A stretch of 64,000 nucleotides of DNA, taken from Chloranthus sessilifolius (lineage: Eukaryota; Streptophyta; Magnoliopsida; Chloranthales; Chloranthaceae). Below are positions 4,212 to 52,468 of this stretch, in pieces. The notes beneath the pieces are model-generated. The model ran no database searches and was not told the DNA's origin. It worked only from the letters and a program-made list of their open reading frames with translations. The stretch is from contig CM037584.1 of assembly GCA_021018995.1 (NCBI GenBank), forward strand, positions 142,059,317-142,123,316, in the 5' to 3' direction. The position numbers and the translations under genes are program-made. Position 1 is the stretch's first letter; each line of letters opens with the position of its first letter.

Positions 4212-4292
4212 GGGATATTTACCTGACCAACCCTGTCAGATACACCTTTTACGTCAAAGGCCACGTAGTTTCACCTTTACCCAAACCCCGCT
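4212..4292 (+). repeat. Left terminal inverted repeat of MULE A
   Basis: Matches, on the opposite strand, the right end of the same element (about 12697-12777) and both ends of MULE B. The block containing TTTTACGTCA and the GTTTCACCTTTACCC stretch is best conserved. Confidence 0.8.
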
Positions 4293-4481
4293 ACGCATCG
4301 AGTCGTCGCCCGCCTGTAAGAAATGCCCAAGCTACCCCCAATGTAATAAATAGCCGCCCTTTTTTCAACTCTTCATTGTTTACCTTTTTTTTACTTTTTA
4401 CTTTTTCGTTCAAAGTCGGTGGAGAGGCGGTGTCGATTCGTAGACGCTAGCGTTCAGTTCTACAATCTTCAAGCTACCAAA

Positions 4482-4869
4482 TCTGTAAGTTGGAATTAAA
4501 ATTACCTTCCATTGTTGTAGATTTTTTTCTTCTCCTTTTATTGGTGCACATTTTATTATAATTTTTAAGGTTATCCTATATATAATCGATATCGACCGTA
4601 TATGTAATTGTTATCGACTCTATAAATAGTCGATGATGACTTCATATTAAATCGATATCGACTCTATAAATAGTCGATGGCGACTTCATATTATGTTATA
4701 TCGATTACAAATACGGTCGATATCGATTTTATTTATAGTCGTTATCGATTACATATACAATCGATATCGATTGTATATGTAATCGAAATCAATTTTATAT
4801 ATTACAGTTCATTTAACATTTAAACTATCCTTGTTAGTATGGGGCTCAGTCTTTTCTGTTTTATTACAG
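4482..4869 (+). other. Probable 5' leader intron of the MULE A Ulp1-type gene
   Basis: A donor-like GTAAGT follows AAATCT at about 4482. A pyrimidine-rich TTTTATTACAG acceptor lies just before the start codon at 4892. The intron would contain repeat array A1. The matching region of MULE B has the same flanking words but is about 1 kb longer. Confidence 0.5.
4586..4805. repeat. 22-bp palindromic repeat array A1
   Basis: About ten tandem units of 22 bases, each TCG-N4-CGA plus a 12-base A/T-rich spacer. It lies in the probable leader intron of the Ulp1-type gene and corresponds in position to the array near 24.6 kb in MULE B. Confidence 0.9.
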
Positions 4870-5762
4870 TTCATTTCAACAAGCTGTCAAGATGGTTGTA
4901 CACCGACCTGTTGCCAAGTGTTCCCCCAGTGTCATTTCAAATCTCTACGATAGTGCTAACTCAACTTGAAAGAAGTTGCTAAGAGATTCAGATTTCGGTA
5001 GAATATTTCAAATGCCTAAGGGTGTGAGATTTCTTAGAGACGTGGTCGATGCGATGTTGATGTTTCGGGTTGAAAAAAATTACTTTCGAATCGGGAAGGC
5101 TGATGTCTATCTTCGAAAGTTGGACATTGTATTGATATTGGGCCTTGCCGTAGTTGGCCCACAAAAGTATACCCCGTCCGTCAAACCACCGGAAGAACAA
5201 ACCATTCGATACAAATATTTTTGTGTGGAACTCCTCATGGGAAAATTCTCCGATCTCACATAAATAATGTAATTTGGAGAGCGGAAAGTGATGACGACTT
5301 CATAAAGTTATCCCTTCTATATGTGTTGTGTATATTTCTTTTTCTCGGGTCCCACCATCAACTGGTAGAAGACCACATCAACCTCATCGATGATGTCGAG
5401 AACTTTAACCGAACTCTGTGGGGTCTCCACGTGTACCATGACTTGATAGAGTATATAATAAAGGGCGCGGCGAATAGAAAGATCGTCGAGATGGATAAAG
5501 CCCTTAAGACGTACAACACATATGGATGCATATGTGTACTTTAATGGTGGGCTTATGAGATACTGCCAGATATCTCGCCTGCCCAAATAGGCCTTAAGGA
5601 CCCTTTCCCACGACTGGTGAAATGGTCGGATAGAGCGTAATCAAGGATCAAAGGTTACACTCACGGACAGATGTTAGACAGCAAGGTATGATGTCTATTA
5701 AATAATTTAAATAAATAAAGTTGAGTAGAGAGACCCGATGCCGATTCAAATAAATAAAGTTA

Positions 5763-6049
5763 TCGATTTTGTGATGAATCGTTATCGACTTATTAAATAC
5801 TCATTATCGATTCTGTAACAAATCGCTATCGATTATGTATTGAATCGATAACGACTTAATAAATAGTCGATAGCGATTCATTAAGAAATCGATAACGACT
5901 ATTTAATAAGTCGATACCGATTTATTTTAGAATCGATAACGATTTATTAAATAATCGATAGCGATTTGTTACAGAATCGTTAACGACTATTTAATAAGTC
6001 GATAACGATTCATTACAAAATCAATAACGACTTATTAAATAGTTGATAC
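5763..6049. repeat. 22-bp palindromic repeat array A2
   Basis: About thirteen 22-base units, mostly TCGATAACGA or TCGATAGCGA cores with spacers such as CTTAATAAATAG. It occupies the first coding intron of the Ulp1-type gene (donor-like GTATGA near 5686). Same position as array B5. Confidence 0.92.
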
Positions 6050-6754
6050 TTTGTATTTGGAATATATTATTAATTTAGTTTGTTATTTACCGTGTTTCCT
6101 TACATTTCAAAAAATACGCGCTCCCCTCGTACCTGTTGCCTTTGAATTAGAGATACTCGTCTTAAAAGAATATCTACGAGGTCAAAATGTTGCTGGGGGA
6201 AAAGGAAAGAGGTTCCCCTCGTGTTGGTCAAGAAAGCTGTGGAAGAGTTCCGGCCAAAAAAGAAGAAAAATTACATTCTGGTCGAGAATATTGATGAGAA
6301 AGAATTTGATGACCAATCAACATCGTACGAAGAATCTTCCTCGAAAGAGGGCCCCGTCCATGTAGATGTAGAGCGGCCAAGAACTAGGGGGGCCACGAAG
6401 GAGAGCCTAGCTGCGAAATGGAGCCCAATTGCACCGTCCTCCTCCAATGAGTCGTTGTTGAGGAGGGTTGACACTTTGACGCTGGAAAACTTGAAGCTCA
6501 CCTAAAGAGTGAGCCATTTGGAGGGAGAGAATGTAGTCCTGGCGAAACGTTATGCCTTCATCGAAAAACTATGCAACTCCTTGAATGAGCAGCTCAATTC
6601 AAGGGATGCGGAGTTACAGAAGTTGAATCACTACAACTCGTTGGTCAGAAAGGGTCAGGGGAATATAAAAGAACTTCTTGAAATTTTACTTAAGGCGAGA
6701 CCTAAGGTATGTGTTGATACGTAATTTTTATATATTCAGGATTGTTAAAATAAA

Positions 6755-6991
6755 TCGATATCGACTGCATATAGAGTCGATAACGATTGTAACTACAATC
6801 GAGATCGACTATATATAGAATCGATAACAATTATATGTATAATCGATATCGACTGCATATAGTCGATAACAATTGTATTGGCAATCGATATTGACTTTAT
6901 ATAGAGTCAATAACGATTATATTTATAATCGATATCGACTGCATATAGAGCCGATAATGATTAAATTTAAAATCGATATAGACTTTTTATA
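6755..6991. repeat. 22-bp palindromic repeat array A3
   Basis: About ten units, many TCGATATCGACTGCATATAGAG-like. It starts about 40 bases after a GTATGTG donor that follows the coiled-coil exon. Same position as B4. Confidence 0.9.
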
Positions 6992-7683
6992 ATGGGGACC
7001 AAAAATTATTTCTTATACTGCACCATTATTTCGATGTTCAGGATATCACTATTGAGGAGCTGATATCGAAGGTGTGTGATACAGCCGTCGATAAGGAACC
7101 AACAGTTTCAATGCATGAGGATTCTCCCATGGACGAAGTGGATGGCGAGTCAGCGAAAGAGACACGAGGCTAAGTCGATAAGGGTCTAGCTCTTCCCAAT
7201 TGCCTCCCTAACAAATTGACCCTCGCTTAAGACCTAGGCAAGGGAAACTCATCAAAACAACTGCCGTCAAACTTAGGACACAGCGAAGGGGAGCGACGGT
7301 GAAAAAGCCTATAACTGGGAAGGCCATTGAAGGACCTATGATTGAGCTCGGACGGTGCCTCGATGCACTACCGAGCACTCGGTCTCTGATCGATGATGCT
7401 ATGCTGTCGACAATGAGCAAAAATATATGCTAGACATATAGAACAAGCCTGAGTCTGAGGACGAGTAAGTCATTCTTTCCAGGAACAAGCCTGAATCTTT
7501 TACTTTATTATTTATTATGAAAATTAGTTACGTTGACCTTTATTTATGCAGCAACTACGTAAGCACTGTCGGTAATTATATGCTGGTGGTGCAATCTTTC
7601 ATATGTTTGGTGGGCACGCATTACTTGAATAATTTTGTAATTAAAGTAACCCTACTGTAGGCACAAATAGATAATATAAAGAT

Positions 7684-7918
7684 GTCGACTACTCGAAATA
7701 GAGTCAATGACAACTCTTTATATAGTCGTTATCGACTCTAGAACGAATCGATATCGATTCATTGTAGAGTCGATAACGATTATTTATTTAGTCGGTAATG
7801 ACTATATGGAGAATCGATATCGATTTATTGTTAAGTCGATAACGATTATTTATTTAGTCGGTAACGACTGTATGGAGAATCAATATTGATTCATTGTAGA
7901 GTCGATAATAATTATTTA
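7684..7918. repeat. 22-bp palindromic repeat array A4
   Basis: About ten units. Two adjacent 44-base pairs are nearly identical, showing recent local duplication. It lies in the intron before the Ulp1 peptidase exon. Same position as B3. Confidence 0.9.
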
Positions 7919-8967
7919 TATATTATTAAAGTGCAGGAGACGACTTTTTGAATGTTGCATATATAACTGTAACTGCATTGGTTTCATATTATGGGCGAGT
8001 AATTGATGACAATATTCATCTTGATGCAAAGGACAAATGCTTCCTTATGTGCCCTACCGCTCTGACCTATATGGGCTTTGAACTGAACGATTTCAACAAG
8101 TTTCTTCTTGCTAAAAAATTATACGAAGCATCGTTCGAGGTTCAAGTCAACGGTGGGCTGCCCATAAATTCAAACAGAACCAAGGCAAGAAGCTGTTGGA
8201 AAATTTCTTCTTCAATCAGTTTCGGAAGCTGTGAGCTTACGAGTGCAGCACAGTATGCTCCCAACCTCTTTATAATTTTTTTTATAATTTTTTCTATTAT
8301 ACCTTTTGAGATTATATTACTTTTTGTAGATATTTATCCCAATTCATTCACAACAACCATTACACTGGGCGCTTGCGATCGTTAAGGTAGTTGAACGATC
8401 GATAATGGTCATCCACCCTATTTTTAGTAGGCCCTCTAAGGAAAGATATCTAACCCAATTACAAACGCTGGTAAGATATTTTGCTTAGCATATCTTTCAT
8501 CATTGTTAGCTTAGCATATCTGACATTCCTCTATTTCAAAACAAACCCAATACCTTCCCGCAGTTTTATATTCGTACGGTGACTCCACTGCACTGAATGC
8601 GAAGACATATCCTTGGTCATCTAGTGACTGCCGGATCAAAGTCGTTCCCCAACAGACCAATTTGTGTGATTGTGGGGTGTTTGTGGTGAAGTATGTGGAG
8701 TACTTCATGTTGGGGAAGAAATTTGACTTCGCGCAATCAGATATGGATAAGATCAGGATAGAAATTGGTTATACACTGGCTAAATACACCGGCGATGGAG
8801 GAGGAGAACTGGAGCAGGACGACAAAAAGGAGAAGGCGCAGTAGTAGAGTGGTTATAATGTAAACGAAATATTTTGTAAATGTAAATGACACATTTTTTG
8901 TAAATAAAATATTTTAATATAAATGAAACATTTTTAAGTAATAGTGATTATAATGTAGAAGTAGCAG

Positions 8968-9273
8968 TCATTATCGACTTTATATAGAGTCGTCATCGAC
9001 TATATAAATAACCGATAGCGACTCTATATAGAGCCGCTATCGACTTTAGATAGAGTCGTCATCCATCGACTATATAGATAGTAGATAGCGATTCTACAAT
9101 GAATCGATATCGACTTTATAGAGAGTCGATGGCGACTCTACATAGAGTTGATGGCAACTCTATATAGAGTCGTTATCGATTATTTATATAGTCGATGACA
9201 GCTCTATATCCAATCATCAACGACTCAATATACAGTCATCATGACTATATATACAGTCGCTGACGGCTCATTT
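8968..9273. repeat. 22-bp palindromic repeat array A5 between convergent genes
   Basis: About thirteen units with CTCTATATAGAG-type spacers. It lies between the 3' end of the Ulp1-type gene (8844) and the 3' end of the transposase gene (9420). Same position as B2. Confidence 0.9.
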
Positions 9274-9419
9274 GTATATTCCATGTTGCATGTTTTTGAG
9301 TAACTGTATAGTCTAAAATTACAACTATTACGAAACAAAAAAATCGAGATTCTAAGTTTCTGAGCAAATATATATTGTCTCGTTTACATTTCATCTATCA
9401 TTATTAAAAATATACACTA

Positions 9420-12170
9420 TCAACCCATCAGTCCCACTGCCGTGCAACTTCTGGGATTGTGCCCATACTCACTGCACCTGCTACACTGTAGGGCCCTAAC
9501 CTCACCCTTACACCTTATCCTTCTCTTTCTTGAACGGCCGGCTTACTTTCGACAATTATAGGGTGGTCTCACTTTCATTTTTTCAGGGAGTTGCTCTGCT
9601 TGGAACTCCCATTGGCTTTTATCGAGGGTGGGAAGCCATTGCTCGTCGTATATTTGTCTAAAGCAAGCAATAAAAAACTACTTCTCACAGAAGTTATGGT
9701 AATCATAACTTCTCCGATTGATAGCCGTCACGGTATGGGAGCAAGGCAAGCCATGAATGTGCCAACGGCAGTAAGTACACATCTTGTGTACCAAGTCGAT
9801 GTGATGAATGAAATTTTCGGAGTTGATTTGGAATTGATCACGCCCGTATAGTTAAGCTCTCTTTCTACCAGCCCATTGCAACACCTTCTTCATATGCTCG
9901 TCTACTTTCGGACAGAGGAGGGTGGTCCATTTCTCATATATTTGTCGGTGCTTTTGAAAATTATCGGCGGCTTTCTCTCTAGTAGTTCTGGTTAAGTCGA
10001 TAATTGGTCTCTCTCGAGCTATCTTTAATATACTGTTTAAGCTTTCTACATTATTCGCAGTCAGAGAATCATACTATCTTCCTTCCATATATGCACGTGC
10101 CCAATGCTTCGGGTCTATTTACAAAATATACTCTACAGCCTGAGGATCAGTAAGATCTTTCTTCATTTCGTTCATAAAATAATCAAATCTCTCTACTAAA
10201 TATGCACGCGTAGCTTTCCACCATAGACCATTCACATTGTTCCTGGGATACTTGTGTGCCAAATTTTATGTTATATGTCGCATGCAGTAGTTGTGATATG
10301 CGTTAGGAAAAATATGTTTCATCGCCTTTATTAAACCCTTCGACCTATCCGTGATAAAAATGAAATCTTCGTTAAACCCACCGATCACGAACGCAGCTAC
10401 CCATTCAAGAAACCACATCCATATATCCTCTTCTTCTAACTCGATGACGGCAAATGCTAACGGTAATATATGACCATTACTGTCTTGCGCCGAGGCGATA
10501 AGTAGGATCCCTTCGAAACGTCCTCGTAGGTGTGTGCCGTCTACAAGCAATATGCGACGAAATGTATTGCGGTAGCTTCCAATGCACGGACCAAAACTCT
10601 AAAGAAATCTTTGGAACTTATCGTCAAGCGTAAGTTGAAAGGATGTTTATACATTAGGATCTACCCTCTCCATCTCCTTCACGTAGGCCGGTAGGTCCAT
10701 AAATTGTCCTTCCCAACTGCCTCTAATATCATTAAGGGCAAGTTCTTTTCCCCTCCAAGCCTTTTCATATGAGATTTACATATTATAAGCTTTTGCAATA
10801 TCAAATATTATCAACGTTGGTGTATAGTCGAATCCTTCCATAAGCTTATCCCGTATATAGTTGGCTACGAAGGAGATTGTTGCATTACGGTGAGCATGCG
10901 GTCTGATCTTAGCGGCCCGCATATGTGAGTACTATTGAATATCTTGATTTGGGTAGAGTCGAGCCCAGTTAATTTAGACGCATATATTCGCCACGAACAA
11001 TTAGGTTTGTAGCATCCGGCTGTCACTCAATAACTAGCGGTTTTTAAAGGCCGAATTTAAAAGTTTTTTTTTACCGCGTGCTTTCAATGATCTTTGAAAT
11101 GTTTGTTTGTCTCTGAAGATCTCTCCAACTTTAAATGTCCAATTCTGATATTCAATTTCTGCCTCTTCATCAGAAGAGTCGCTCGATGTCTCTGACACTT
11201 CGTAATCTCTGTCTACAAGGGGATTATTAATGTCTCTCACAAAAATTTTTGAATCCTCTTTTATAAACCCATCCGATTCACTTTCATAATCTTCTTCTAA
11301 GATATCTTCATTAGTGGGTTGAGGATGACTACGCCATTTACTAGCGGTGTTCTCAGGTGGTTGACTAGATCCTTCACCGAAGGGGTTCTAATGTGATTGA
11401 CTAGATCCTTCACCGAATCGATAATGGCGTGATTAACTAGGTCCTTCACCAAAGGAGTGCTCATGTGTATGGACATGAGGTTAAGTTTCTCCGGTAATTC
11501 CCATCGATAGCATGGTAGAACATAATTCGTGAGTCAACCAAGTTGTCCATCCACCAGGGAAGATATGACTGAAATCGTCGGTATCCACCACCCTTTCTGA
11601 AGTGTAGTTTAACCATTGACTATATTGTTGTGACCCATGCATATATTTTAGTGGGTCATCATACAATTCAATCGGAGCATCGTTTAAATCAAAAGTTGCT
11701 TTCCTAGTAGTCATGTTCGCCATAATATCATTGTCATCGTCTAACGGGACGGTGTCGTATATAGTTTCATCCTCCTCAAACTTACATGACTAAAATGAAT
11801 GACTACTCACAAAATCAGTCCCACCAAGATCTACTTATTCAGCTTCGACTCGGAAGGATGACGGTTCCTTAATGATAAATATCTTTATAATGCCCACCCC
11901 GGATCTATAAAACGTAAATAGGATGGCCAAATCATCAACGTCCAAAATGTCGGCAACCACAGGGGTATTCACTATCTTCATATAAAACTTTATGGAAACT
12001 GTTTTATCCGCCCTCGCAAAACTGACAGCAGACATTCGCCTCATGAATTGTTCATAAGAAATACTAGTTGAAATATCAATAACCCTCCACCGGCAACTTT
12101 CATACAAGTCAACATCGTTTACAAGAAGGCCATCACAGTGACAAAGAAGATGAATTATTACTTCCGTCAT
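9420..12170 (-). pseudogene. MuDR-type MULE transposase of MULE A (broken)
   Basis: Homologous along its length to the transposase of MULE B. The start codon (12170-12168) opens MTEVIIHLLCHCDGLLVND; the stop (9422-9420) follows a VGLMG ending like that of B. Open blocks remain at 12170-11835 (N-terminus), 11723-11481, 11240-11034 (start of the MuDR DNA-binding region) and 10550-10266. The last is the catalytic core with LLVDGTHLRGRFEG, ITDRSKGLI and YCMRHIT. Between these blocks the frame is lost several times, and the C-terminal SWIM and zinc-knuckle part is degraded. It shares one in-frame TAG (about 10599) with MULE B. At the codon where B has its private TGA, A keeps CGA (Arg). Confidence 0.85.
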
Positions 12171-12246
12171 CGCATGTTTAAGAATGAGACGGAAGGGATC
12201 ATAAGACTGATGACACTAAAGAGAAAAGATGATTCTTAACACATAT

Positions 12247-12342
12247 AGACTCTAAATACAATCGATATCAATTATATTTGCATTCGATATCGACTGTATA
12301 TAAAGGCGATAACGATTATATTTGCAATCGATATTAACTTTG
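12247..12342. repeat. 22-bp palindromic repeat array A6
   Basis: A short array of about four units just upstream of the transposase start codon in MULE A, matching B1 in position. The other arrays are two to three times longer. Confidence 0.8.
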
Positions 12343-12738
12343 AAAAAAAAAATGATCCAAAGAAATAAAGACTTTCTTATATTGCACCATTAAGAGACCT
12401 TAATAAACTGAAAATGGAGTTTAAGTAAGATACATCGCATCGCAAGGGAAAACTGCAGGGTCTTCTTGTCACAATGGAGAAATGCAGGGGCTTCTTCTCC
12501 CAAGCCTCTGTTTTATTCTTCGAAATAGCAGATCAGAGCAAATTAGACTAAGGAAGAAGACATCGTCACTTGACCCACCTCTAACTTTTTAGCAAATTAA
12601 AATGGGGAAGAAGATGATGCTTTGTGGATTAAAGAAAGTCATAGAATGGAGTAATTTGGACTTTTTACTCTCCTTAGGGTCGGCTAGGCTTGGAGCTGGT
12701 CGGTTTGAGTAAATGTGAAACTACAGTGCTTCTAACGT

Positions 12739-12838
12739 AATAGGTGTATCTGAAAGGGTCGATAAGATAAATTTCCCTAAAGTAGACCAATAGGTGTATC
12801 TGAAAGGGTCGATAAGGTAAATTTCCCTAAAGTAGACC
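12739..12838. repeat. 50-bp tandem duplication spanning the right end of MULE A
   Basis: The block AATAGGTG...TAAAGTAGACC occurs twice head to tail with a period of 50 bases and one visible difference. Each copy holds the last 39 bases of the element plus the nine-base target duplication and two flanking bases. The duplication therefore arose after insertion. Confidence 0.9.
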
Positions 12839-13344
12839 ATTCAGATGATGTAATCATAATTCTTGATTTCTTTCTTTGAAAAATGTGTTAATAATGAGTT
12901 CCTTATGCATGAGGTGTTTTTTAGGGACGAGAGAGGGGCAGAAAAGACTCACTCAACTTATATTTTTCAAGTCATCTTATAAGGACAGAGCGGCGAAATT
13001 TCGTGAAATTTGCCAAAAATGAGGGCCAAACGAAAGTTTTGAAGAAATTTGAGTGCTTTTCGATAATTTCAAAAATTTTATTATTTTTGGCGAATTTCAA
13101 AAATTTAGGTGATTTTCGAAAGTTTTTGTAAATTTCAGTATATTATATGATGAGAGAATACTATTCTCAAAATAGTAGCTTTGTGCTTAAAAGTTAAGAG
13201 ATTCAACACAGCTGGTAAGCATGTTAAAGGAACTTACATTATATAAGTGGCTACCCATGTCAATTTTTTTGTTCCCACCGCTGTGGGACTAAAAAATAAG
13301 TGCAGTTTGCTCAATGGTTACCGTTTAATCACTCAAAAGGCTGT
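12839..13344. other. Intergenic, no gene seen
   Basis: A/T-rich sequence. 12985-13135 repeats a loose AAATTTTCGAAA-like phrase, and a similar stretch lies at 26180-26300. I see no coding region or RNA gene. Confidence 0.5.
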
Positions 13345-16300
13345 TTTTTCACCCCACCTCCTCCACTTAGTATGCATTAATTGCCTTTGAATCAGATAGT
13401 CGAGGTCATCTTTCATCCTCATCTTTTGCACATTAGATCTATGGACCGTAGTCGTACCATCAGACGGTTGATTTTTTATTATGCATTGCACACATCTCAA
13501 AAAGTGACGTTAAAATCATGCTTGAGTGTGATGGAGGTCATATGATTTTAGGGGCACTTTTTAAAATATATGTCATATATAATAAAAAACTGACCGTCTG
13601 ATGGTACGCCCACAATCCATAGGTCCATTATTGTAATAACCCAGATTTTTGAATTTTATTAAATGGTATTAGATGATGTACCACACAGTGCGTGGTGCTA
13701 ACGCTCCACACCGGAATATACCCACTTTAGAAATAGTCTAATTTTTTTATATATATCAATATTAGACTCATTGCGGAGTACTTGTCGATACGATTCCAAC
13801 GATATATAATTTGTCAATTTTCGATAAGAATATAAAAAGTTATGCCCGTTTGAAGAGTGAAGCGGGTTAAAGGGCACAATTATAAATTCGGGAGAGAATC
13901 ACCATTTACCTTGGTGCTTACACAAAGCGCTGGAGCAAAACCTCTTCTCAAGCTTTTCAAGTCACGTATGAATTCTACTTGCGTGTAAAAACTACTATTT
14001 TATTAAATCTTATACGGAAAGTCTTAATTAGAGTTAACTTTATCTGAGAATTAGATATATATTTACTTCTTCTCTCGATTTGTCTTTCTTTATTCCTCTT
14101 CTCTTGCAAAAGCTCGTCGATTGCCATCTTTCACGTAATTCCGGATCTCCAGATTTTCGATCTTATCGGAAGAATCTTACACCATCAAAGTTTCTCATCA
14201 TTTGCGACCAATTTATCGGAAAGAATTCTCGCGAAAAGACTCGGGCATATCGTCTCTCGAATCCGATCTCCATCAACCCAAATCATCGTAGGATTCGAAT
14301 CACGCTTCAACAAGTGGGTGCCTCTAAATCCATCTTAAATTATTCAGTTATTTCTTAAAAAAGAAAACCCTAATTTTTCCTTAAATTTTGATAAATTTCG
14401 GGTCTAAAAAATATAGAAATTAGGCCCAAAATCGATAGGATCGTTTTTCCCAGATTTTCGTGAAATTCGGCCAAACTCTTCAACAGACACAGCCTCGGTA
14501 TTTTTGCCATAACGTTTTACTCCGAACTCTGATTGACGTGATTCTTGCGGCATTGGAAAGAAGACAACGAGATCTACAACTTTTTCTGAAATAGCAATTT
14601 CACGAATTTAATATTTTTAAGGTAAAAATTGAGCTGCAAGTCGGGATACGTTTTAGATGATCCAAGGTTACTCGGGTTTGACATTATTTTTTTAACTCTT
14701 GGACTATTTTACGCTAAACTTATCTCTAGACTTATAAATCGCTAAAATTAAATAAAATACATTAAATAGCTTGCATCGAATAACAATCTATAAGTTTAAG
14801 GGGTCAAATATGGACGTTTTTCAATACTTACCATTCTATTACCTCCTCTAAGCCTCATACAATTATTGAATTAACACATGCGCTCCTTTAGAATTTTAAA
14901 ATAGGTTGGATCGCTATACCAGTCAATCACCAAATTTCATGAATATAATTAACCTTAATGAAGTATAGTTTCAACACTATTGTAAAATAAATATAGTTAA
15001 ATATTTCTTATTTTCTGTTTTACTTTAATATTTCGTATGTTATGCTCTTTATTAATTTTCTTTAAAAATATGAAATGTTTAAGGTTTATGTTATAATTCA
15101 TTCTTATATATGTTCACCATTATCATATGACATTCATCATATAGAAAATCACGATAGGGCATACGCATATAAGTTAAGAATAAAATATGACACATGACTT
15201 AAGCCTTCGTCACGGTGGGGTTTCTTTCACGGTCACGTGGAACTTGGAATGTAGGCATCCATGTATGGATGCAACCCCTCTATGGTAGTATGGGATACCA
15301 CACGAAGTATATCTAGGTTACTACGGAACCCGTCCCTTGGAAAACGTGGTTTAGTGAAGCCTATCGCACCGTGGCCTATTCTAACTAAGTTTTAAGAAAA
15401 AATGAGAAAAGAATATGTTAAGACACATATATATTAAGAAAGTGGGGACTTAAGCCCACGCAAATATAAAATCGGGGCGGGGACCTAAGCTCAGAACCGA
15501 ATAATGTTATGATATGTTAAGATACGCTGTGAAGGCCAGCTAAATATAAATTAAGTTTCTACACGTGTCATACCTTACGAGCCACAGTAAGGGCTTAACG
15601 TCTGCAGTCAAGACGGGTCTTAAGGACATTATAGCCTTGTCTCGAACTAAGGGGACATCGTGGTTACTATACCGGCAACCTCATCTGGCTGGATGGTGGT
15701 TTATGTTATGATATGGAGGTTAGGTGGTTATCTACACGTGGACCTCGCGTGGTAGGCTCGAGCAGCGATCCTGGCACAAATTGTTTAAATAAGATAAGAT
15801 GCAAAGTACGTTGTGTAGGCATATGGAGTAATTAATAAGACTTACGATATGTTACGTATGCTAAGTTGATGAGACAAATAGGAAAAGAGATAAGAAAATA
15901 GAAGCATCATACACTCTTCATGTTATATTAGTATATTTTTCAGTCTTGATTATGATAGTCTATGAATTATGGATAAGTTTATTTTATTTATTTAAGATGT
16001 TGGTTATATTTTTAAAATACACCGTAATTCAAGCGATTGCACACACGCCCAAGTTATGGTGGATCGATTGTGCAACCTGCTGAGTTTACGCGATTGAGTA
16101 AACTCACCCCCCTCCCAAAATCTAACAGTTTCAGGTGAAGATTCTACTTATCCCGTCCTTGATGATTTGAAAGCTGCTGATCCGGAGATGGCTCATATAA
16201 ACAAGGATGTCGGCTACCACCTTGATGAGAGCGTAGATCCAGCAGATTTTTACCAGCATTGAGAACCCTTTTACTCTAGTTTTCATTATTTCTTAAGAGA

Positions 16301-16710
16301 CTTGTTTTAGCCTTGATATATTGTGTGAGTTTACATTTGAGACCGTTTTACCCTATCTGAAACTGATTTTGATTTGATATCCTAGATGCATGGTTAGGAT
16401 TAAGTACTTCATTATTATTGTCTATGTTTTTCGTTATTAATTTATAAGTAAATTATTTTTAATGCTATCTTAAATGCCTCAATCCATATGCTAAGTCAAT
16501 TTATAGATTATGTGTATGTCCGCTTATCGCCTTAACCAGCGTGCGGTGTCATAACACGGAATTCTAGGCCCTCGATATCGGGTAAGGATTCTGGGTCGTG
16601 ACAATTCTATAGGATATGGAGATGAAAAACGACCTTCACTATCTGATTCAAAGGCGGTCAATGCATGCCAACTAAAGAAAGTGGGGTGAGAAAGCAGTCT
16701 GATGGGGTGA
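13345..16710. repeat. Hairpin MITE split by a solo LTR
   Basis: The left part (13345-13631) and right part (16604-16710) are inverted copies around CACCCCACCTCC, CTTTGAATCAGATAGTCGAGG and their complements. An inner hairpin with CATCAGACGG at 13435-13625 is shared with the elements at 3.4 kb and 62.9 kb. The 2.97-kb LTR at 13632-16603 interrupts it. Confidence 0.6.
13632..16603 (+). mobile_element. Solo LTR, Gypsy-type, 2.97 kb (fossil)
   Basis: Begins TGTAATAACCC and ends GGGTCGTGACA (TG...CA). The flanks ATTAT and ATTCT form a five-base target duplication with one difference. It is the same family as 58012-60978 (opposite strand). It shares long blocks, for example 15210-15385, with the ~4.1-kb LTRs in the GALT-like intron. 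No internal region is attached, so it looks like an LTR-LTR recombination remnant. The Gypsy assignment rests on LTR length and on the Met-tRNA-type primer site next to a related LTR. Confidence 0.8.
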
Positions 16711-16799
16711 GTATAATGGTACCCTTTGCTAATTTGTCTTCTATAGTTTTATACTTGAGTTCGGCGTCAGTGCTTGGACCAATTGCTAATTTTTTAAAA

Positions 16800-16885
16800 G
16801 GGAAATTTACCTGACCGGCCCTGTCAGGTCCGCCTTTTACGTCAGAAGCCCTATAGTTTCACTTTTACCCAGACAAACCAGCTCC
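16800..16885 (+). repeat. Left terminal inverted repeat of MULE B
   Basis: Pairs with 26085-26170 on the other strand with only scattered differences, over CTGTCAGR-, ACRTCAGAAGCCC- and GTTTCACTTTTACCC-type blocks. Confidence 0.88.
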
Positions 16886-17226
16886 AAGCCTAGCCGACCC
16901 TAAGGAGAGTAAAAGGTCCAAATTACCCCCTTCTATGACCTTCTTTAACCAACAAAGCATCGTCTTCTTCCTCATTTTATCCTGCAAAAAAGTTAGAGGT
17001 GTAAAACCCTAGACGGAGTGTCCTTACTTAGTCTGATCTGCTCCGATCTACTATTTCGAAGAAGAAAACAGAGGCTTGGAAGAAGAAGGCCCTGCATTTC
17101 TTCATTGTGGCAAAAAGACCCTGAACTTTGTCCTTGCGACGAGAGGTATCCTACTTAACCCCATTTTCAGTTTATTAGTGTTATTTAGTGATGCAGTATC
17201 TCTTAGAAGAAGAAGGCTCAAGATTT

Positions 17227-17477
17227 CGTCATCGGCTCCATACAATCCATATCGATTGCAAATACAATCGGCATCGACTCCATATAGAGTCGATGACGAT
17301 TGTGTATACAATCGATATCGATTGTGTATGGAGTCGATGCCGATTGTATTTGCAATCGATATCGATTTTGTATGGAGCCGATATCGACTCTATATGGAGT
17401 CGATGCCGATTGTATACACAATCGATATCGACTCTATATAGAGTCGATATCGATTGTATTTGCAATCGGCATCGAGT
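17227..17477. repeat. 22-bp palindromic repeat array B1
   Basis: Eleven units in perfect 22-base register, the cleanest array in the window. Cores are TCGATATCGA, TCGATGCCGA or TCGATGACGA. Spacers are TTGTATTTGCAA, TTGTATACACAA or CTCTATATAGAG. It lies in a probable 5' leader intron of the transposase gene whose acceptor is TTAAACAG just before 17541. Confidence 0.95.
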
Positions 17478-17543
17478 TATAGTCGTCTTTTCTCTTTTGT
17501 TTCATCAGTCTTATGACCTTTCCTTCTCATTCTTAAACAGACG

Positions 17544-20291
17544 ATGACGGACGTGAGGATTCCTCTTCTTTGTCACTATGATGGTCTTCTTGTAAACGAT
17601 AATGGCTTGTATGAAGATGGTCGGCGGAGGCTTATTAACATTTCAATTGAAATTTCTTATGAACAATTCATAAGGCGAATGTCTGCTGTCAGTTTTGCGA
17701 AAGCGGATGAAACAGTTTCCACAAAGTTTCATATGAAGATAGTGAATACGCCTGTGGTTGCCGACATTTTGGACTCTGATGATTTGGCTACATTATTTAC
17801 GTTTTATAAATCCGGAGTGGACGTTATAAAAGTATTCATCATTAAGGAACCGTCATCCTTCCCAGTTGAAGCTGAACAAGTAAATCTCGGCGGGACTGAT
17901 TTTGTGTCTCATTCATTTCAGCCATGTAAGTTTGAGGATGAAATTGTATACGATACCGTCCCGTTAGGCGATGACGGTTATATTGCGGCGAACGATGGCA
18001 GAGGGAAAGCAACATTTGATTTAAACGATGCTCCGATTGAATCATATGATGACCCAGTAAAATACATGCATGGGTCACAACAATGTAGTCAATGGTTAGA
18101 CTATACTTCAGAAAGGGTGGTGGATACCAACGATTTCAGTCATATCTTCCCCGGTGGATGGACAACTTGGTTTACTCAAGACTTATGTTCTACCATGCCA
18201 TCGATGGGAATTACCGGAGTAACTCAACCCCATGTCCATACATATGAGCACCCCTTCGGTGAAGGGCCTAGCCAACCACGCCATTATCCATTCTGTGAAG
18301 GATCCGGTCAATCACATCAGAACCCCTTCGGTGAAGGATCTAGTCAACTACCCGAGAACACCGCTAGTGAATGGCGTAGTCATCATCAAGCCATGAATGA
18401 AGATACCTTAGAAGAAGAATATGAAGGCGAACCGGATGGGTTTATCAAAGAGGATCCGAAAATTTTTGTGAGAGACATTGACAATCCCCTAGTAGACGGA
18501 GATTACGAAATGTCAGAGACAACGGGCGATTCCTCCGATGAAGAGGTGGAAACTGAATATCGGAATTTGACGTTTAAAATTGGAGAGTTCTTCCGAGACA
18601 AACAAACATTTCAAAGAGCATTGAAAGAACACGCGGTGGAGAAAAACTTTCAAATTCGGCCTTTGAGGACCGCTAGTTATCGAGTGACAACCGGATGCTA
18701 CGAACCCGATTGTTCGTGGTGAATACATGCTTCTAAATTGACTGGGCTCGATTCTTTCCAAATCAAGACATTCAATAGTACTCACACATGCGGAGCCGCT
18801 AAGATCGGACCGCATGATCACCGTAATGCAACAATCTCCTTCGTAGCGAATTATGTACGGGATAAACTTATGGAAGGATTCGACTACACACCGGCGTCGA
18901 TAATGTTTGATATTGCAAAAGCTTATAATGTGCAAATCTCATATGCAAAAGCTTGGAGGGGAAAAGAGATTGCCCTTAATGATATTAGAGGAAATTGGGA
19001 AGGACAATTTGTTGATCTACCGGCCTACGTGAAGGAGATGGAGAGGGTAGATCCTAATATACAAACATCCTTTCAACTTACTCTTGACGGTAAGTTTCAA
19101 AGATTTTTTTAGAGTTTTGGCCCATGCATCGGAAGCTACCGTAATACACTTCATCGCATATTGCTTGTAGACGGCACACACCTACGAGGACGTTTCGAAG
19201 GGATCCTACTTATCGCCTCTGCGCAAGACGGTAATGGTCATATATTACCGTTAGCATTTGCCGTGGTCGAGTTAGAAGAAGAGGATACGTGGATGTGGTT
19301 TCTTGAACGGGTAGGTGCGTTCGTGATCGGTGGGTTTAACGAAGATCTCGTAATTATCACGGACAGGTCGAAGGGTTTAATAAATGCGGTGAAACGTATC
19401 TTCCCTAACGCATATCACAACTACTGCATGCGGCATATGACACAAAATTTGCAGCACAAGTATCCCAGGAACAATGTGAAGGGTCTATGGTGGTGCGCCG
19501 CGCGTGCATATTCGAAAGAGAAATTTGATTATTTTATTAACGAAATGAAGAAAGATCCTGCTGATTCTCAGGCCGTAGAATATATTTTGAAAATAGATCC
19601 AAAGCATTGGGCACGCGCACATATGGAAGGAAGGCAGTACGATTCCCTGACTACGAATATTGTCGAAAGTTTAAACAGCGTGCTAAAAATAGCTCGAGAG
19701 AAACCAATTATTGACTTAATCAGAACTACTAGAGAGAAAGTCGCCGATCATTTTCAAAAATGCAGAGAGATATCTGATAAATGGACCACCCTTCTCTGCC
19801 CGAAAGCAGACGCTCACATGAAGAAGGTGTTGCAATGGGCCGGTAGAAAGAGAGCTCAACCATACGGGCGCGATCAATTCCAAGTCAATTTCGGAAATTA
19901 CATTCATCACGTTGACTTGGAACACAAGACCTGTAGTTGCCGCCGTTGGCACATTCATGGCTTGCCTTGCTCCCATGCCATGGCGGCCATCAATCAAAGA
20001 AGTTACGACTACTATAAATTTTGTGAGAACTGGTTTTTCACCGCTTGCTTTAGACAAACATATGACGAGCAATGGGTTCCCACCCTCGATAAAAGTCAAT
20101 GGGAGTTCCAACCAGAGCAACTCCCTGAAAATATGAAAGTGAGACCACCCTATTATTGCCGAAAGCAAGCCGGCCGTCCGAGGAAGAGAAGGATAAGGTC
20201 TAAGGGTGAGGTTAGGGCACTACAGTGTAGCAGGTGCAGTGAATATGGTCACAACCGCAGGAGCTGCAAGGCAGTGGGACCGATGGGCTAA
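17544..20291 (+). pseudogene. MuDR-type MULE transposase of MULE B (two in-frame stops)
   Basis: One reading frame of about 915 codons encodes a full-length transposase, which cuts and rejoins DNA at the element ends. The N-terminal 340 residues are acidic and poorly conserved. A MuDR-type DNA-binding region follows (FRDKQTFQRALKEHAVEKNF... CYEPDCSW, residues about 350-392). The catalytic domain begins at ILLVDGTHLRGRFEG, with Asp in VDGTHL, Asp in ITDRSKG, the C/H pair YCMRHM, and a likely Glu in NIVESLNS. Next come a SWIM zinc finger (CSCRRWHIHGLPCSHAMAA) and a CCHC knuckle (CSRCSEYGHNRRSC) near the end. Two stops interrupt it. TGA at 18720-18722 stands where MULE A has CGA, a CpG C-to-T change. 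TAG at 19110-19112 is also present in MULE A. Frame is otherwise unbroken and codons look constrained. A splice event removing the TAG cannot be excluded: a GTAAGT lies 22 bases upstream. Confidence 0.9.
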
Positions 20292-20375
20292 CAGTGTATA
20301 TTTTTAATAATGATAGATTGAATGTAAATGAGAAATTCAGAATCCATATTTTTTTACACTGTAATATAGTCTTTA

Positions 20376-20645
20376 CCGATATATCATAGAGTCGTCATCG
20401 ATTGTATAAATAATCGATATCGATTCTATATAGAGTCGCCATCGACTATTTATAAAGTCGATATCGATTCATTTAAGAATCGGTATAGATTATGGATACC
20501 GTCGATGGACGACTCTATATAGAGTCGATATCGATTACCTAAAGAATCGTGAACGATTAGTTATATAGTCGGTAGCGATTACATACAGAGTCGTCACCGA
20601 TTATTTATATAGTCGATGACGACTATATATGTAGTCGCTAATGGA
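20376..20645. repeat. 22-bp palindromic repeat array B2 between convergent genes
   Basis: About twelve units between the transposase stop (20291) and the 3' end of the Ulp1-type gene on the other strand. One unit has an extra base. Same position as A5. Confidence 0.9.
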
Positions 20646-21659
20646 TGCTATTTCTACTTTTTAACTACAACTACATAAAAATAGTGCAATTATATTCAAA
20701 ATAATTCATTAAGAAAAAATATTTTATTTATAATTACAAAAATATTCAAATACAACCACTCATCGTTGTTCTCCTTTTTGTCGCCCTTCGCCAAGATCGC
20801 CATCGCTCGTATGTAGCCGATATGGCCAATTTCCTCGATCCTATCTATATCCGATTATGAGTTAAATTTCTTCCCCATCATAAAGTATTCGACATACTTC
20901 ACAACAAACACTCCACAACCACAGAGTTGGTCCTGTCGGGGACAAATTTTGATCCAACAAGGATAGCTCTTCTTCATTAGTGCAGCGGAGTCACCGTACG
21001 AATATAAAATCACGGGAAGGTATTGGGTCTGTTTCGAAATAATAGAGAGGAGTGTCAGATATGTTAAGCTAACAATGATAAAAGATATGCTAAGCAAAAT
21101 ATCTTACCAGCGCCTGCAATTGGGACACATATCTTTCCTTAGAGGACCTATTAAATATAGAATTCGACGATCATTATCGATCGTTCGACTAACTTTACGA
21201 TCATAGCGCCCGATGTAGTGGTTGTTACGAATGTATTGGCAGAAATATCGACAAAGACGTAATATAATCTCAAAAGGTATGATAGAAAAATTAAAAAGAA
21301 TAATTATAAAGAGGATAAAAGCATACTATGTTGCATTCGTGAGCCCACAGATTCCGAAGCTCATTGAAGAAGAAAGTTTCCATCAGCTTCTTCCCTCCGG
21401 TCTCTCTTTGTCTATAGGCAGCCCACCTTTGAACTTGAACCTCGATCGACTGGTCGTATAATTTTTCAGTAAGCAGGAACTTGTTGAAATCTCTCAGTTC
21501 ATAGCCCATGTACGTCAGCGCGGCAGGGTCCATAAGGAAGTTTTTGACCTCTTTCTCAGGATGAATTTTATCATCAATAACTTTCAAATGTCTCAGGTAG
21601 GCGCCCATAACTTGAAACCAATGCAGTTAGATTAAAATATGCAGTTAGAGTTAAATATA

Positions 21660-21885
21660 TAATCGTTATCAACTCTATAAGTCATCGATATCGATTCATT
21701 TGAGAGTCGGTAACGATTATTTAAGTCATCGAAATAGTTATCGACTCTCTAATGAATCGATGTCGATGATGTACAGAGTCGCTAACGATTACATAAGCCA
21801 TCGTTCGCGACTCTAAAAGCCATCGATAACGATTACATAAGTCATCGATAACGATTACATAAGCCATCGATAACGATTTTGCCTA
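21660..21885. repeat. 22-bp palindromic repeat array B3
   Basis: About ten units in the intron next to the Ulp1 peptidase exon. The last four alternate ATAAGTCA and ATAAGCCA spacer ends. Same position as A4. Confidence 0.9.
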
Positions 21886-22583
21886 CAGTATGTTAAACTT
21901 ACAAAGTTATCCAGGTACTGAGTTCCCGCCAGACATCTGAAGGATTGCACCACCAGCTTATACTTGCCGACAGTGCTAACATATTCTCTGCATAAAAAAT
22001 GGCCAACTTAACTAATCTTCACGATAAATATATAATAATAAAGTTAAGTATTCAGGATAGAATAACTTACTCGTCCTCCTTCAGAGGCTTGTTCCATATG
22101 TCTAGCATATATTTTTGCTCCGCTGTTAGCTCAGCAGGAGCATCTTCATCCGTAGACCCAGGACCAGCGGTAATGACTGCCACCGGTCCAGTCTCAGCAG
22201 TTGGTCCTTTGCTGGCCTTCTCGGTAGGCTTCTTTTCAGTCGCTACCCTTCGCTGGGCCTTAGGTTTGACGACAATTACTTTGCTGACTTTTGCTTGCCT
22301 AGGTCTTAAGCGAAGCTCAGCTTGTTGGTGAGGCAATTGGGAAGAGGTTTCCTCTTCACCAGCAGGACCCTTATCAGTTTGGGTCTCAGGCTGCTTGTCA
22401 GCAGCTGCCTTCACCTCATCAACGGGAGGAGGAGGAGGAACCTAATGCGCAGGAGCTGATGGTTCCTCATCGAAGGCTGTGTCGCACACCTTCAATATCA
22501 GCTCCTCCATAGCCACATCATGTACATCGTAATAATGATGCAAAATAAGAATTAATTTTTGGTCCACATTTTAAAAAGTCCAA

Positions 22584-22768
22584 ATCGATTTTAAATATAA
22601 TCGTTATCGACTGTACTTATAGTCGCTATCGATTTTATATATGATCGTTATGGATTATATATATAGTCGCGATCGATTGTAAATAGAATCGAGACGGACT
22701 GCATATATAATCGATAACGATTGAATATATTATCGGTATCGACTCTATATATAATCGATATCGATTTA
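22584..22768. repeat. 22-bp palindromic repeat array B4
   Basis: About eight units next to the coiled-coil exon's donor. Same position as A3. Confidence 0.88.
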
Positions 22769-23435
22769 TGTTAACAAAATTGAACATCTAAAACCAGATT
22801 TCAACACATACCTTAGGTCTCGCCTCCAATAAATTTTTAAGGAGTTCTTTAATATCAATCTGGCCCTTTCTGAATAAATAGTTGTAGTGATTTAACTTCT
22901 GCCACTCCGCATCCCTTGAATTCAGCCTCTCATTGAAGGAGTTGCATAGTTTCTCTAAAGAAGCGCAACGTTTAGCCAAGGCCTTATTCTCTCCCTCCAA
23001 ATCGCTCACTCTTTGGGTGAGCTTCAAGTTATCCAGCGTCAAATGATCGACCCTCCTCAACAAAGAATCATTGGAGGTGGACGGTTCAATTGGCTATCTT
23101 TTTGCCGCCAGCTCTCCTTGGCGGTCCCCCCTAGTTCTTGGCCGACCCTCTCCCACATGCACGGGGCCCTTTTTCGAGAGGGGTTCTTCTTCAGACGTCG
23201 ATGCGTCATCCCATTCTTCCTCTCCCTCTCCAACATTCTCGACCGAAATGTAATTTCTTTTCTTCTTCGGCCGAATCTCTTCCACAGCTTTCTTGACCGG
23301 TTCTTTCCTCTTCCCCCAACCTCCTTTTGAACCCGTAGATATTCTCTTAACACGGGTATCTCTAATTCAAAGCCCTGAGGCACGAGGGGAGTGCGAACCT
23401 TTTGAAAGAAAATGAAACATGTAAACAACAGAATA

Positions 23436-23675
23436 AAATGATCGTTATATATAATAAATCACTCTCGATTATGTAAAGAATCTATTATTTAATAAATCGT
23501 TATCGATTCGTTAAAAAATCGCTATCGATTAGTTAACGAATCGTTATCGACTACTTAGTAAGTCGTTATCGACTTTGTACACAATCGTTATCGATTTGTA
23601 AATGAATCGGTATCGATTCTATAATGAATCGTTATCGATTCTGTAATGAATCGTTATCGATTCTAGAATGAATCG
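23436..23675. repeat. 22-bp palindromic repeat array B5
   Basis: Eight perfectly phased units of TCGTTATCGA or TCGGTATCGA with spacers such as TTCTATAATGAA, preceded by two decayed ones. Same position as A2. Confidence 0.92.
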
Positions 23676-24571
23676 GTAAGTTTTTTTTTTTTTAATAGGC
23701 AATAGACCTCATACCTTCTTACTCTAACATCCGCTCATGAGTGTAACCTTTGATCCCGATCACGGACTCATACATTTCAGCCATTTCGTGGGAAAGGGTC
23801 CTTGAGGCCTAGTTTGGGATGGCGATATATATGGCAGATCTCATAAGCCCACCATTGAAGTACATATGCATCCATATGTGTTACGTCTTCGGATTTATCC
23901 ATCTCTCGGTTTTTCTATTCATCGCCGCCTTTATTATATACTCGATCAAGTCTGGTAGGCGTACGGAGTTCGGTTAAAGGTCTCCACATCATCGATGAGG
24001 TCGATGTGGTCTTCCCAAATCGATGGTGGGACCCGGGAAGAGAAATATGTACAACACAAAGAAGGACAACTTTAAGAAGTCCTCATCACTTTCCGCTCTC
24101 CAAATTGCAAGATCTATATGAGACCAGGAGAATTTTTTCCGGAGGCGTTCACGAAAGTATTTGTCAGATCTAATGGTTTGTTCTCTACGGATGGTTTAAC
24201 GGATAGGGTATACTTTTTACGGGCCAACTACGGCAAGGCCCGATGTCAATGCAATGTCTATCTTAGAAGATAGACATCAGTCTTCCCAATTCAAGTGGTT
24301 TTATCAACCCAAAATGTCGATCGCATCCACCACATCGAAAAGAAATCTCACCCTTGGGCATTTGAAATATTCCACCGAATCTCTCAATAACTTCTTCCGA
24401 GCTGGGGTAGCATTTTCGTAGAGATTCGAAACGGCACTAGGCGAACACTTGGCAACAGCTCGGTGTACAACCATCTTGACAGCCTTTTGAAATGAACTGT
24501 AATAAAAAAGAAAGGACTGAGCACCATACTAACAAGGATAGTTAAAAATGTTGATGAAATGTATATATAAA

Positions 24572-24712
24572 ACCTATATCGATTATATATAACCGATATC
24601 GAGTCTACATATAATCAATACCGATTACATATGTAAGCGATAACGACTCTATATGTAATCGATATCGATTACCTATGAAATCGCCAACGACTCAATATAA
24701 ATTCGCAATGAC
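24572..24712. repeat. 22-bp palindromic repeat array B6
   Basis: About six partly decayed units upstream of the Ulp1-type start codon, matching array A1. Confidence 0.8.
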
Positions 24713-24759
24713 CTCAAAATATTTATTTATATAGAAATTACTTAATTTACTGACTCTTA

Positions 24760-25195
24760 AGTTTCTTTTTCTTTCTTTTGTTCTATTTCTTTTCTTCCTT
24801 CTTCTTTACCTACATCGATTATATATATAATCGATATCGACCCTATATGTAATCGATACCGACTCTAAATGATCTCAAAATGTTTAATTTACCTGTCAGG
24901 TAAATTTTCCTTATTTATATAGAAAATATTTAATTTACTGACTCAAAAGATTTCATGAAGTCGCCATTGCATCAAAAAGTTTCATTTACTTGTAAAATTT
25001 TTCAATTACATTCAAAATTTTTCACTTATAATTAAAAATGAAAAGAAAATTTATGAAGAAGGATGAAGAGCAGGTGGTGGATGGGGTGGAGAGGCGGGTG
25101 GTTCCGTCTTAAGTTTCTTTTTCTTTTCTTCCTTCTTTTTCTTTTCTTCTTTTCTCTTCTTCTTTTCTTCCTTCCTCTTCTTCTTTTCTTCCTTC
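24760..25195. other. Pyrimidine-rich insertion-like stretch in MULE B
   Basis: TTTCTTTTTC-like tracts at 24760-24805 and 25105-25195 flank A/T-rich sequence with no counterpart in MULE A. A small 22-bp array lies at 24818-24872. The open frame at 25063-25383 is mostly the pyrimidine tract and is not supported as a gene. Confidence 0.5.
24818..24872. repeat. Short 22-bp repeat array in MULE B
   Basis: Two and a half units, isolated between pyrimidine-rich tracts, with no clear counterpart in MULE A. Confidence 0.75.
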
Positions 25196-25603
25196 GCCAA
25201 AATCTTCATTACTTCATCGTATCATCGTCCACAGAAGCAGAGGATCGTGTTACGTGGTGGTGGTGGGTCCTCCCATACAGGCTCGAACTTGATTGGGTTA
25301 TAGAAGGTTTTTTCTTCGTCGTCAGACATTGGGAAAAATATGGGCTGGTAGGGATGATAGGTGGTTTGCTAAGGACGAACTAAACCTGTATTTAAAGCTC
25401 CTAGATTGTGGAATGCGAATCGTTGTATTAAATTTTCTCATTCTTCCAACCTAACTTGCCATAATGGTTTTACAAAAGGGTAGTTGGCAATAAATTGAAC
25501 GTCGGCTGAGATAAATATAAAACCTCGTATGATTTATTATGGCATCGAGAGTAATAACTATAGGGAAATTAATTCAAATGATGGGTATTAATTATATTCA
25601 TAG

Positions 25604-25830
25604 AGAGTCGATATCGATTTGTTATAGATTCGTCATCCACAGTTTATATAGTCGATTACGACTACATATATAATCGTTATCGATCTTCTATGTAATCGAT
25701 ATCGATCTTCGATGTAATCGATAGAGACTAAATAGAAGATCGATATCGATTACATATAGGATCGATATCGATTACATATAGAATCGATATCGATTACCGA
25801 TTACATATAGGATCGATATCGATTACATAT
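25604..25830. repeat. 22-bp palindromic repeat array B7
   Basis: About ten units. The last four are nearly identical TCGATATCGATTACATATAG-like units, indicating recent amplification. It lies near the right end of MULE B, in the Ulp1-gene leader. Together with B6 it corresponds to A1. Confidence 0.9.
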
Positions 25831-26179
25831 GGGAAAACCTAAAAAAATTATGTCAAAATATGCACCAAAGAGAGGAGAAAAAAAAAATCTATAGCGATGG
25901 AAGCTAATTTGGTAGCTTGAAGGTTGTAGATTTGAACGCGATTGTCCACGAAGCGTCAATGACTCTCCACCGACTTCGAACGAAAAAGTAAATTGAAAAC
26001 AGTAAATAATTTGAAAAGAGGGCGGCTATTTATTACTGTGGGGGTACTTTGGGTATTTCCTACAGGCGTGCCTCAGCTCGGCGCGCAGCGGGTTTGTCTG
26101 GGTAAAAGTGAAACTATAGGGCTTCTGATGTAAAAGGCGTATCTGACAGGGCCTATCAGGTAAATTTCCCTATTTAAAA

Positions 26180-26640: not shown

Positions 26641-26735
26641 TTATATAGAGTAAAGTAAAGAAGTAAAGAAAACACTTGATTCAAGTTCCTTCTCCATAAA
26701 TGCCCACAGAGAGAGAGAGAGAGACAGAGAGCGAG
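26641..26735 (+). promoter_or_regulatory. Candidate core promoter and GA-rich leader
   Basis: TTATATAGAG at 26641-26650 is a TATA-box candidate about 100 bases before the start codon. A GAGAGAGAGACAGAGAG run (26708-26732) follows in the presumed 5' leader, a common feature of plant leaders. Confidence 0.45.
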
Positions 26736-26751
26736 CGTGCGTGAGTTCGTT

Positions 26752-52466: not shown

Positions 52467-52468
<2 letters not shown>

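Follow-up and report, generated by a model that had tools for sequence, protein, structure and literature searches.

A 64,000-nucleotide stretch of Chloranthus sessilifolius DNA (GenBank assembly GCA_021018995.1, contig CM037584.1, positions 142,059,317 to 142,123,316; hereafter the window, in whose numbering all positions are given) carries two copies, A and B, of a Mutator-like transposable element (MULE) with tandem arrays of a palindromic, CpG-bearing 22-bp unit. Each copy has two convergent genes, one for a MULE transposase and one for a VANC-like protein with an Ulp1/C48 domain. These arrays are probably the cis-acting part of a VANDAL/VANC-type, sequence-specific system of anti-silencing and would be bound by the VANC-like protein that the element encodes, as the opposed second gene, the Ulp1 domain, and the placement and turnover of the arrays match known systems. 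An initial annotation, made from the DNA letters alone, knew of no described MULE family with this feature, but the VANDAL/VANC elements of Arabidopsis are a precedent (PMC5735166, PMC10398659).

The window contains 88 copies of the core of the repeat unit, TCGN4CGA, compared with 6.8 +/- 2.7 in 100 shuffles (maximum, 13). Array regions hold 84 of the 88, of which 83 fall inside phased units and the remaining one, at 17466, belongs to an edge unit below the score limit. The distance between adjacent cores is exactly 22 in 54/87 cases, and the two-unit pattern ARTCGN4CGAYTN8ARTCGN4CGAYT is present 39 times in the window and 0 times in 100 shuffles. Units were defined by an iterated position weight matrix (PWM) with a threshold of >8 bits, the 4/88 cores outside arrays being excluded from the seed; because the matrix was trained on the same window, the conservation of the unit is somewhat inflated. 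The matrix found 127 units, 126 of them inside the two MULE copies, compared with a mean of 4.35 (maximum, 8) in 20 first-order Markov sequences. Inside clusters, 100/112 spacings are exactly 22, indicating that the 22-bp arrays reported in the initial annotation are real. Filling 43-45-bp gaps in phase resulted in a phased set of 131 units covering 2,910 bp.

As had been proposed, the arrays belong to two MULEs, and the unit is built of paired half-sites. The half-site ARTCG is found at 187/262 positions (AATCG, 112; AGTCG, 75) and faces its mirror image across the 4 bp of the core and again across the 8 bp of the spacer. Contrary to the first description, the bases between half-sites do not vary freely, since TA stands at the centre of 97/131 cores and of 75/107 spacer junctions. 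TA at both centres results in TA-centred dyads 11 bp apart, with a unit every 22 bp, approximately two helical turns. Both CpGs are kept in 91 of the 131 units, one in 35, and none in 5, and the observed/expected ratio of CpG is 3.10 in the arrays, 1.08 in the remainder of each element, and 0.75 outside the elements. Considered separately, the non-array parts of both MULEs are themselves above the rest of the window in CpG (1.08 and 0.75, respectively).

The array sites correspond in A and B: each of the two genes has arrays upstream, the VANC-like gene also has them in three of its introns, and a further array lies where the convergent 3' ends face each other (Table 1). None of the 131 units (0/131) overlaps an inferred exon, the exon limits being drawn by eye from A/B conservation and GT/AG sites, not from transcripts. 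The count of thirteen arrays (6 in A and 7 in B) given in the initial annotation is fair if the runs at 24567-24696 and 24825-24868 are merged and an isolated unit at 25882 is omitted. By BLAST, the A array at 4580-4798 matches the B arrays at 25602-25834 and 24567-24868 as though these were fused, so that either the intervening stretch was lost in A or an insertion occurred in B. The arrays had also been said to fill all noncoding intervals; this is too broad, as they occupy most of the larger ones, and no unit of >8 bits was found in two short introns of A (approximately 7465-7551 and 8466-8530, limits by eye), in 733 bp upstream in B (24869-25601), or, for all four element ends, in the outermost 267-484 bp.

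This placement bears on which protein might use the sites. TnpA of Spm acts at subterminal repeats, and repeated subterminal sites are likewise known for Ac. By analogy, the arrays might assemble a transposition complex by binding the transposase that the element encodes or an accessory protein of transposition. The sites are element specific, constrained, and dimer-like, and TnpA has been linked to demethylation too (PMC10398659). However, the four ends are free of units, and the arrays are mostly internal, in introns and between genes, making such a role quite improbable. We therefore retain an element-encoded DNA-binding protein as the likely reason for the arrays, as the initial annotation had it, and reject the transposase as the preferred ligand for want of units near the ends. 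A second alternative, in which the arrays recruit a host transcription factor and act as enhancers, promoters, or insulators, draws on the resemblance of palindromic half-sites with TA-rich spacers to clustered factor sites; moreover, the observed constraint concerns the site and identifies no protein. Nevertheless, the intronic and convergent 3'-end arrays, besides the upstream ones, fit this alternative less well, and VANDAL21 and VANDAL6 of Arabidopsis rely on their own protein (PMC5735166), so that we regard a host factor as unlikely.

TABLE 1 Features of the two MULE copies and their arrays (window positions)
Feature	Position	Strand	Description
MULE copy A	4212..12827	+	VANC-like gene on +, transposase on -; ends start with GGGAWATTTACC
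MULE copy B	16800..26170	-	Inverted relative to A; ends are inverted repeats
VANC-like gene of A	4838..8841	+	Weak DUF1985 match, coiled coil, Ulp1/C48 domain at 3' end
VANA-like MULE transposase of A	9455..12215	-	16 stops in the reading frame of B
VANA-like MULE transposase of B	17517..20288	+	DBD_Tnp_Mut, MULE, SWIM; 2 in-frame stops
VANC-like gene of B	20783..24528	-	Coiled coil 22791-23093, C48 remnant 20858-21103; stops present
A array	4580..4798	.	Upstream of VANC-like gene, 10 units
A array	5729..6036	.	VANC-like intron 1, 14 units
A array	6749..6988	.	Second array-bearing intron, 11 units
A array	7698..7917	.	Third array-bearing intron, 10 units
A array	8962..9272	.	Between the genes, at their convergent 3' ends, 14 units
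A array	12256..12343	.	Upstream of transposase gene, 4 units
B array	17240..17475	.	Upstream of transposase gene, 10 units over 17240-17459 and a weaker edge unit
B array	20386..20628	.	Between convergent genes, 11 units
B array	21657..21882	.	Intron syntenic with A 7698-7917, 10 units
B array	22573..22770	.	Intron syntenic with A 6749-6988, 9 units
B array	23453..23666	.	Intron 1, 9 units
B array	24567..24868	.	Upstream of VANC-like gene, 6 + 2 units
B array	25602..25834	.	Nearest VANC-side end, 10 units to 25828

Constraint on the unit is position specific. Within each element, heterozygosity reaches 0.73-0.74 at position 4, compared with 0.07-0.15, 0.06-0.24, and 0.15-0.26 at the T, C, and G of TCG, respectively. 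In columns aligned in phase between A and B, TCG differs in 32/246 cases and the other unit positions differ in 185/494 (p ~1e-12), counts that omit the misaligned 5' end of A and become 38/282 and 203/561 with it included; the global alignment misplaces A 4312-4600, which BLAST sets beside B 26070-25830. Counted apart from the other unit positions, positions 5 and 6 differ in 9/82 and 29/82 cases. We also considered whether the arrays might be the product of functionless minisatellite growth and homogenization. Arrays at syntenic places have unequal numbers of units, and their unit order, compared without the isolated unit at 25882, is mostly not shared (p 0.02-0.03 in 2/7 comparisons and 0.20-0.75 in 5/7), showing that turnover occurs; VANDAL targets evolve likewise (PMC5735166). 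Yet homogenization would hold all positions alike, whereas position 4 is close to random and TCG hardly varies (heterozygosity, 0.06-0.26), even though CpG is the fastest-decaying dinucleotide. This position-specific constraint led us to reject pure homogenization, which had been offered as an alternative. In addition, a scan of genome_contigs with a three-unit pattern matched only 2 contigs, the bacterial L001 and L002, whose near-identical tandem repeats are unlike the MULE arrays and were judged unrelated to them; the same scan of viral_contigs gave 0 matches. A functionless minisatellite is thus highly improbable.

Retention of CpG between the two copies points in the same direction. Canonical array CpGs are kept at 64/68 sites from A to B and at 61/78 from B to A, the latter classed by B's unit phase. 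Retention equal to that of flanking sequence, the outcome named beforehand as contrary to the proposal, is not what we observed, as other noncoding CpGs are kept at only 7/19 and 7/23 sites, respectively. The corresponding counts are 52/103 and 52/110 in the VANC-like exons and 1/2 and 4/10 for noncanonical array CpGs. In the transposase, a demanding yardstick because it is itself under purifying selection, 87/108 (p 0.014 compared with the arrays) and 87/135 (p 0.044) are kept. The excess of array CpG retention over the element's coding and noncoding CpGs expected by the initial annotation is therefore clear relative to the VANC-like exons and noncoding DNA and modest relative to the transposase. 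The canonical CpG sites of A comprise 95 CG, 22 deaminated (TG/CA), and 9 other (n=126), whereas those of B comprise 122, 3, and 11 (n=136); the copies differ in deaminated versus CG sites (p 2.5e-5). Decay of the array CpGs goes with loss of function, A having both more deaminated sites and 16 transposase stops versus B's 2. Since the decay in the more broken copy is deaminating, the array CpGs look formerly selected rather than protected, and their pattern is one of past selection on the site.

Each unit being palindromic and TA recurring every 11 bp, a structural element could also be envisaged: through their phasing, the TA steps might position nucleosomes or bend the DNA, or the units might form DNA or RNA hairpins. 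Without stratification, 4/22 mirror positions covary at p < 0.05 (core 2 and 8; spacer 2 and 6). When bases were shuffled within arrays, a test that did not cover position 8, only one of 14 tests stood out, that of spacer position 6 (68/107 versus 55.7 expected, p 0.004), and core position 10 paired less often than expected (44/131 versus 54.1). With so little covariation, we rejected a hairpin function of the units. Furthermore, TCG and the A at position 5 are at least as informative as TA, leaving the structural explanation with very little probability.

The two genes were compared between the copies. The MULE transposase domain PF10551 is matched in B (E 1.7e-22) and A (E 1.8e-21), and the transposase of B also has a SWIM domain (E 2.2e-10) and, at its C terminus, a CCHC-like CX2CX4HX4C seen by eye, for which zf-CCHC_2 is below cut-off (E 0.06). 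The C-terminal half of this protein had no match in viral_contigs. The ratio of nonsynonymous to synonymous substitution rates between A and B is 0.37 for the transposase and 0.17 to 0.76 for seven segments of the VANC-like gene, indicating that both proteins are under purifying selection. In the VANC-like gene of A, the frame changes inside the DUF1985-like region (4970-5541), the coiled coil (approximately 6416-6718) is interrupted by one stop, and Ulp1/C48 scores above the Pfam cut-off of 20.7 bits twice (44.1 bits at 8524-8841 and 22.5 bits at 8330-8482); the C48 remnant of B, at 19.4 bits, is slightly under it. The coiled coil is conserved between A and B, with leucine heptads seen by eye in the translations. 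A bZIP was considered as the DNA-binding fold, but the zipper half alone was matched (profile 30-59 of 64, below cut-off), and the claim is therefore limited to a coiled coil.

Both copies carry the 9-bp target site duplication expected of the MULE superfamily, at 4203-4211/12828-12836 for A and, A/T-rich, at 16791-16799/26171-26179 for B, with 8/9 bases equal in each. The ends of A pair as an inverted repeat (76 bp at 80%); the terminal inverted repeat (TIR) of B, approximately 100 bp, lies within a 112-bp inverted match at 88% that takes in the flanking target duplication. At the right end of A, a near-perfect 50-bp tandem duplication (12739-12839) takes in the tip of the TIR and some of the target duplication, making 12777 an alternative end. 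Divergence between A and B is approximately 12% in the transposase and approximately 22% both in the VANC-like exons and in non-array noncoding DNA. The copies are inverted and 4 kb apart, so a transcript running through both could form a fold-back RNA and thereby supply small RNAs for silencing. Maize Mu killer offers a parallel for such a transcript.

The window as a whole has the look of plant DNA: the exon at 26680-27342 is similar to the galactose-1-phosphate uridylyltransferase-like PDB chains 1z84 and 2h39 (E 1.3e-57), both of them Arabidopsis proteins. Remains of a copia retrotransposon lie at 51620-54693 (gag, E 5.9e-16; reverse transcriptase, E 6e-49). A 2.97-kb insert at 58012-60978 starts with TGTCACGACCC, ends with TTACA, and has the 5-bp duplication CGATA; the segment that it splits runs uninterrupted at 52144-53630, with the empty site near 53123-53127. 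The insert, in which no internal terminal repeats were found, looks like a solo long terminal repeat. The stretch between the MULE copies at 13632-16603 matches this insert over 3 kb at 81%, and an inverted pair at 28522-31803 and 37857-41074 (84%) matches it in parts.

In Arabidopsis, VANC21 binds VANDAL21 in vivo where YAGTATTAY motifs stand densely in tandem, in its introns, intergenic regions, and terminal noncoding regions, and methylation is lost at the bound regions and across VANDAL21; VANC6 has a different tandem motif, AGTTGTCC/AGTTGTAC (PMC5735166). In the Chloranthus elements, the VANC-like protein, with its DUF1985-like region, coiled coil, and Ulp1-like domain, would bind the ARTCG half-sites in inverted pairs, probably as a dimer, given that the half-sites are inverted and the coiled coil is present in both copies. 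The 22-bp repeat, near two helical turns, could align many such dimers on one face of the DNA. With the protein bound densely upstream of each gene, between the two, and in the introns, the whole element would be stripped of DNA methylation or kept clear of it and could then be expressed and move. We infer the identity of the bound protein, its dimerization, and its demethylating effect from these features. The elements are best read as VANDAL/KI-like ones that have kept their TIRs and whose target is palindromic and bears CpG; we did not file them as strict VANDALs because the TIRs are kept, DUF1985 is below cut-off, and the motif orientation is unlike that of VANC21.

Several observations weigh against an assignment of the arrays to an anti-silencing system. 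The Arabidopsis motifs YAGTATTAY and AGTTGTCC/AGTTGTAC are without CpG, which ARTCG holds, and those of VANC21 run in a single orientation, whereas the half-sites here alternate (PMC5735166). Degenerate or absent TIRs mark the VANDAL group, while TIRs are present here. Both copies are broken. The DUF1985 match, obtained by joining two frames of A, is below the Pfam cut-off (19.6 versus 35.1 bits; E 9.7e-4; profile 45-139 of 141); with a single frame of A it is weak as well (E 0.0045), and a PDB sequence search with this region returned 3 weak matches (E 0.38-1.6), none named VANC. The margin of array CpGs over transposase CpGs is modest, and when A sites where B is outside a unit are counted (misaligned 5' end included, B-to-A sites classed by A's unit phase), 75/83 compares with 87/108 (p 0.07). 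Since any unit aligns with any unit and the order is mostly scrambled, retention partly reflects that nearly every unit has a CpG there, rather than site-by-site inheritance. Gap density in the arrays (6.0 per kb, 6 gaps), compared with 14.5 in other noncoding DNA (17 gaps), resembles the 7.6 of exons (41 gaps) and rests on few events, so that a constraint on spacing is suggestive only. Finally, bases about the core dyad hardly covary, and a half-site may therefore be read singly.

What is new here is that the target is palindromic, has a CpG in each half-site, and follows a strict 22-bp period. No such target is described in the excerpts of PMC5735166, PMC10398659, PMC2528002, PMC13317346, PMC6446971, PMC12859917, PMC8756742, and PMC12312487, nor, judging by title and start of abstract, among the matches listed, three of the lists giving the best 20 of 207, 15 of 51, and 15 of 197, although the eudicot survey of Sasaki et al. 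2022 could contain one. A tentative extension, rather doubtful at present, is a methylation-gated anti-silencer, in which CG methylation of the half-site CpGs by the host would block the binding of, or be sensed by, the element's dimeric protein. If so, the arrays would, unlike the CpG-free motifs of VANC21 and VANC6, form a two-state switch, in which open copies stay open and closed copies stay closed, and it would be explained why precisely the half-site CpGs are kept. A CpG-bearing target raises the direct question of whether anti-silencing proteins read or evade CG methylation. If the anti-silencing assignment is correct, transposon-encoded, sequence-specific anti-silencing reaches further plant MULEs with a different target logic and gains a further lineage for following the joint change of protein and target; two diverged copies in one window already permit a selection test on the sites.

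The abstract of Sasaki et al. 2022 (EMBO J 41:e110070) reportedly mentions helical periodicity of the motifs and Ulp1 among VANC domains. Among known systems, TnpA of Spm/En and MURA of maize MuDR are similar in that a protein encoded by the transposon is associated with reduced methylation of that transposon, but MURA acts on TIRs (PMC10398659), whereas the element ends here are without units. A close likeness is to VANDAL21/VANC21 (Hiun) and VANDAL6/VANC6, which combine a MULE with a second, DUF1985-type gene, weakly matched here (PMC5735166, PMC10398659). They also share dense tandem short motifs in introns and in intergenic and upstream noncoding DNA, 131 units in the present case, and arrays that change fast in unit number and order. 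The strict 22-bp unit, TIRs of approximately 100 bp, and the Ulp1 domain set the present elements apart from both. Group 45, to which the VANDALs belong and whose transposases have SWIM and CCHC, includes members with TIRs of 46-174 bp (PMC6446971), and degenerate or absent TIRs may be typical of the Arabidopsis VANDALs only. Ulp1 has its own counterpart in KIU, VANC genes with an Ulp1 domain that is strongly conserved in eudicots, which act on motifs in noncoding regions of their own kind (PMC13317346). Ulp1-bearing KAONASHI (KI/KIU) MULEs occur in Arabidopsis, and melon, rice, and grapevine have elements like them. The KI-MULEs of Arabidopsis are non-TIR elements, whereas the copies here have TIRs, as do some families of the ULP-bearing MULEs of grapevine; in the KI-MULEs, the Ulp1 gene lies opposite mudrA/transposase, as it does here (PMC13317346, PMC2528002).

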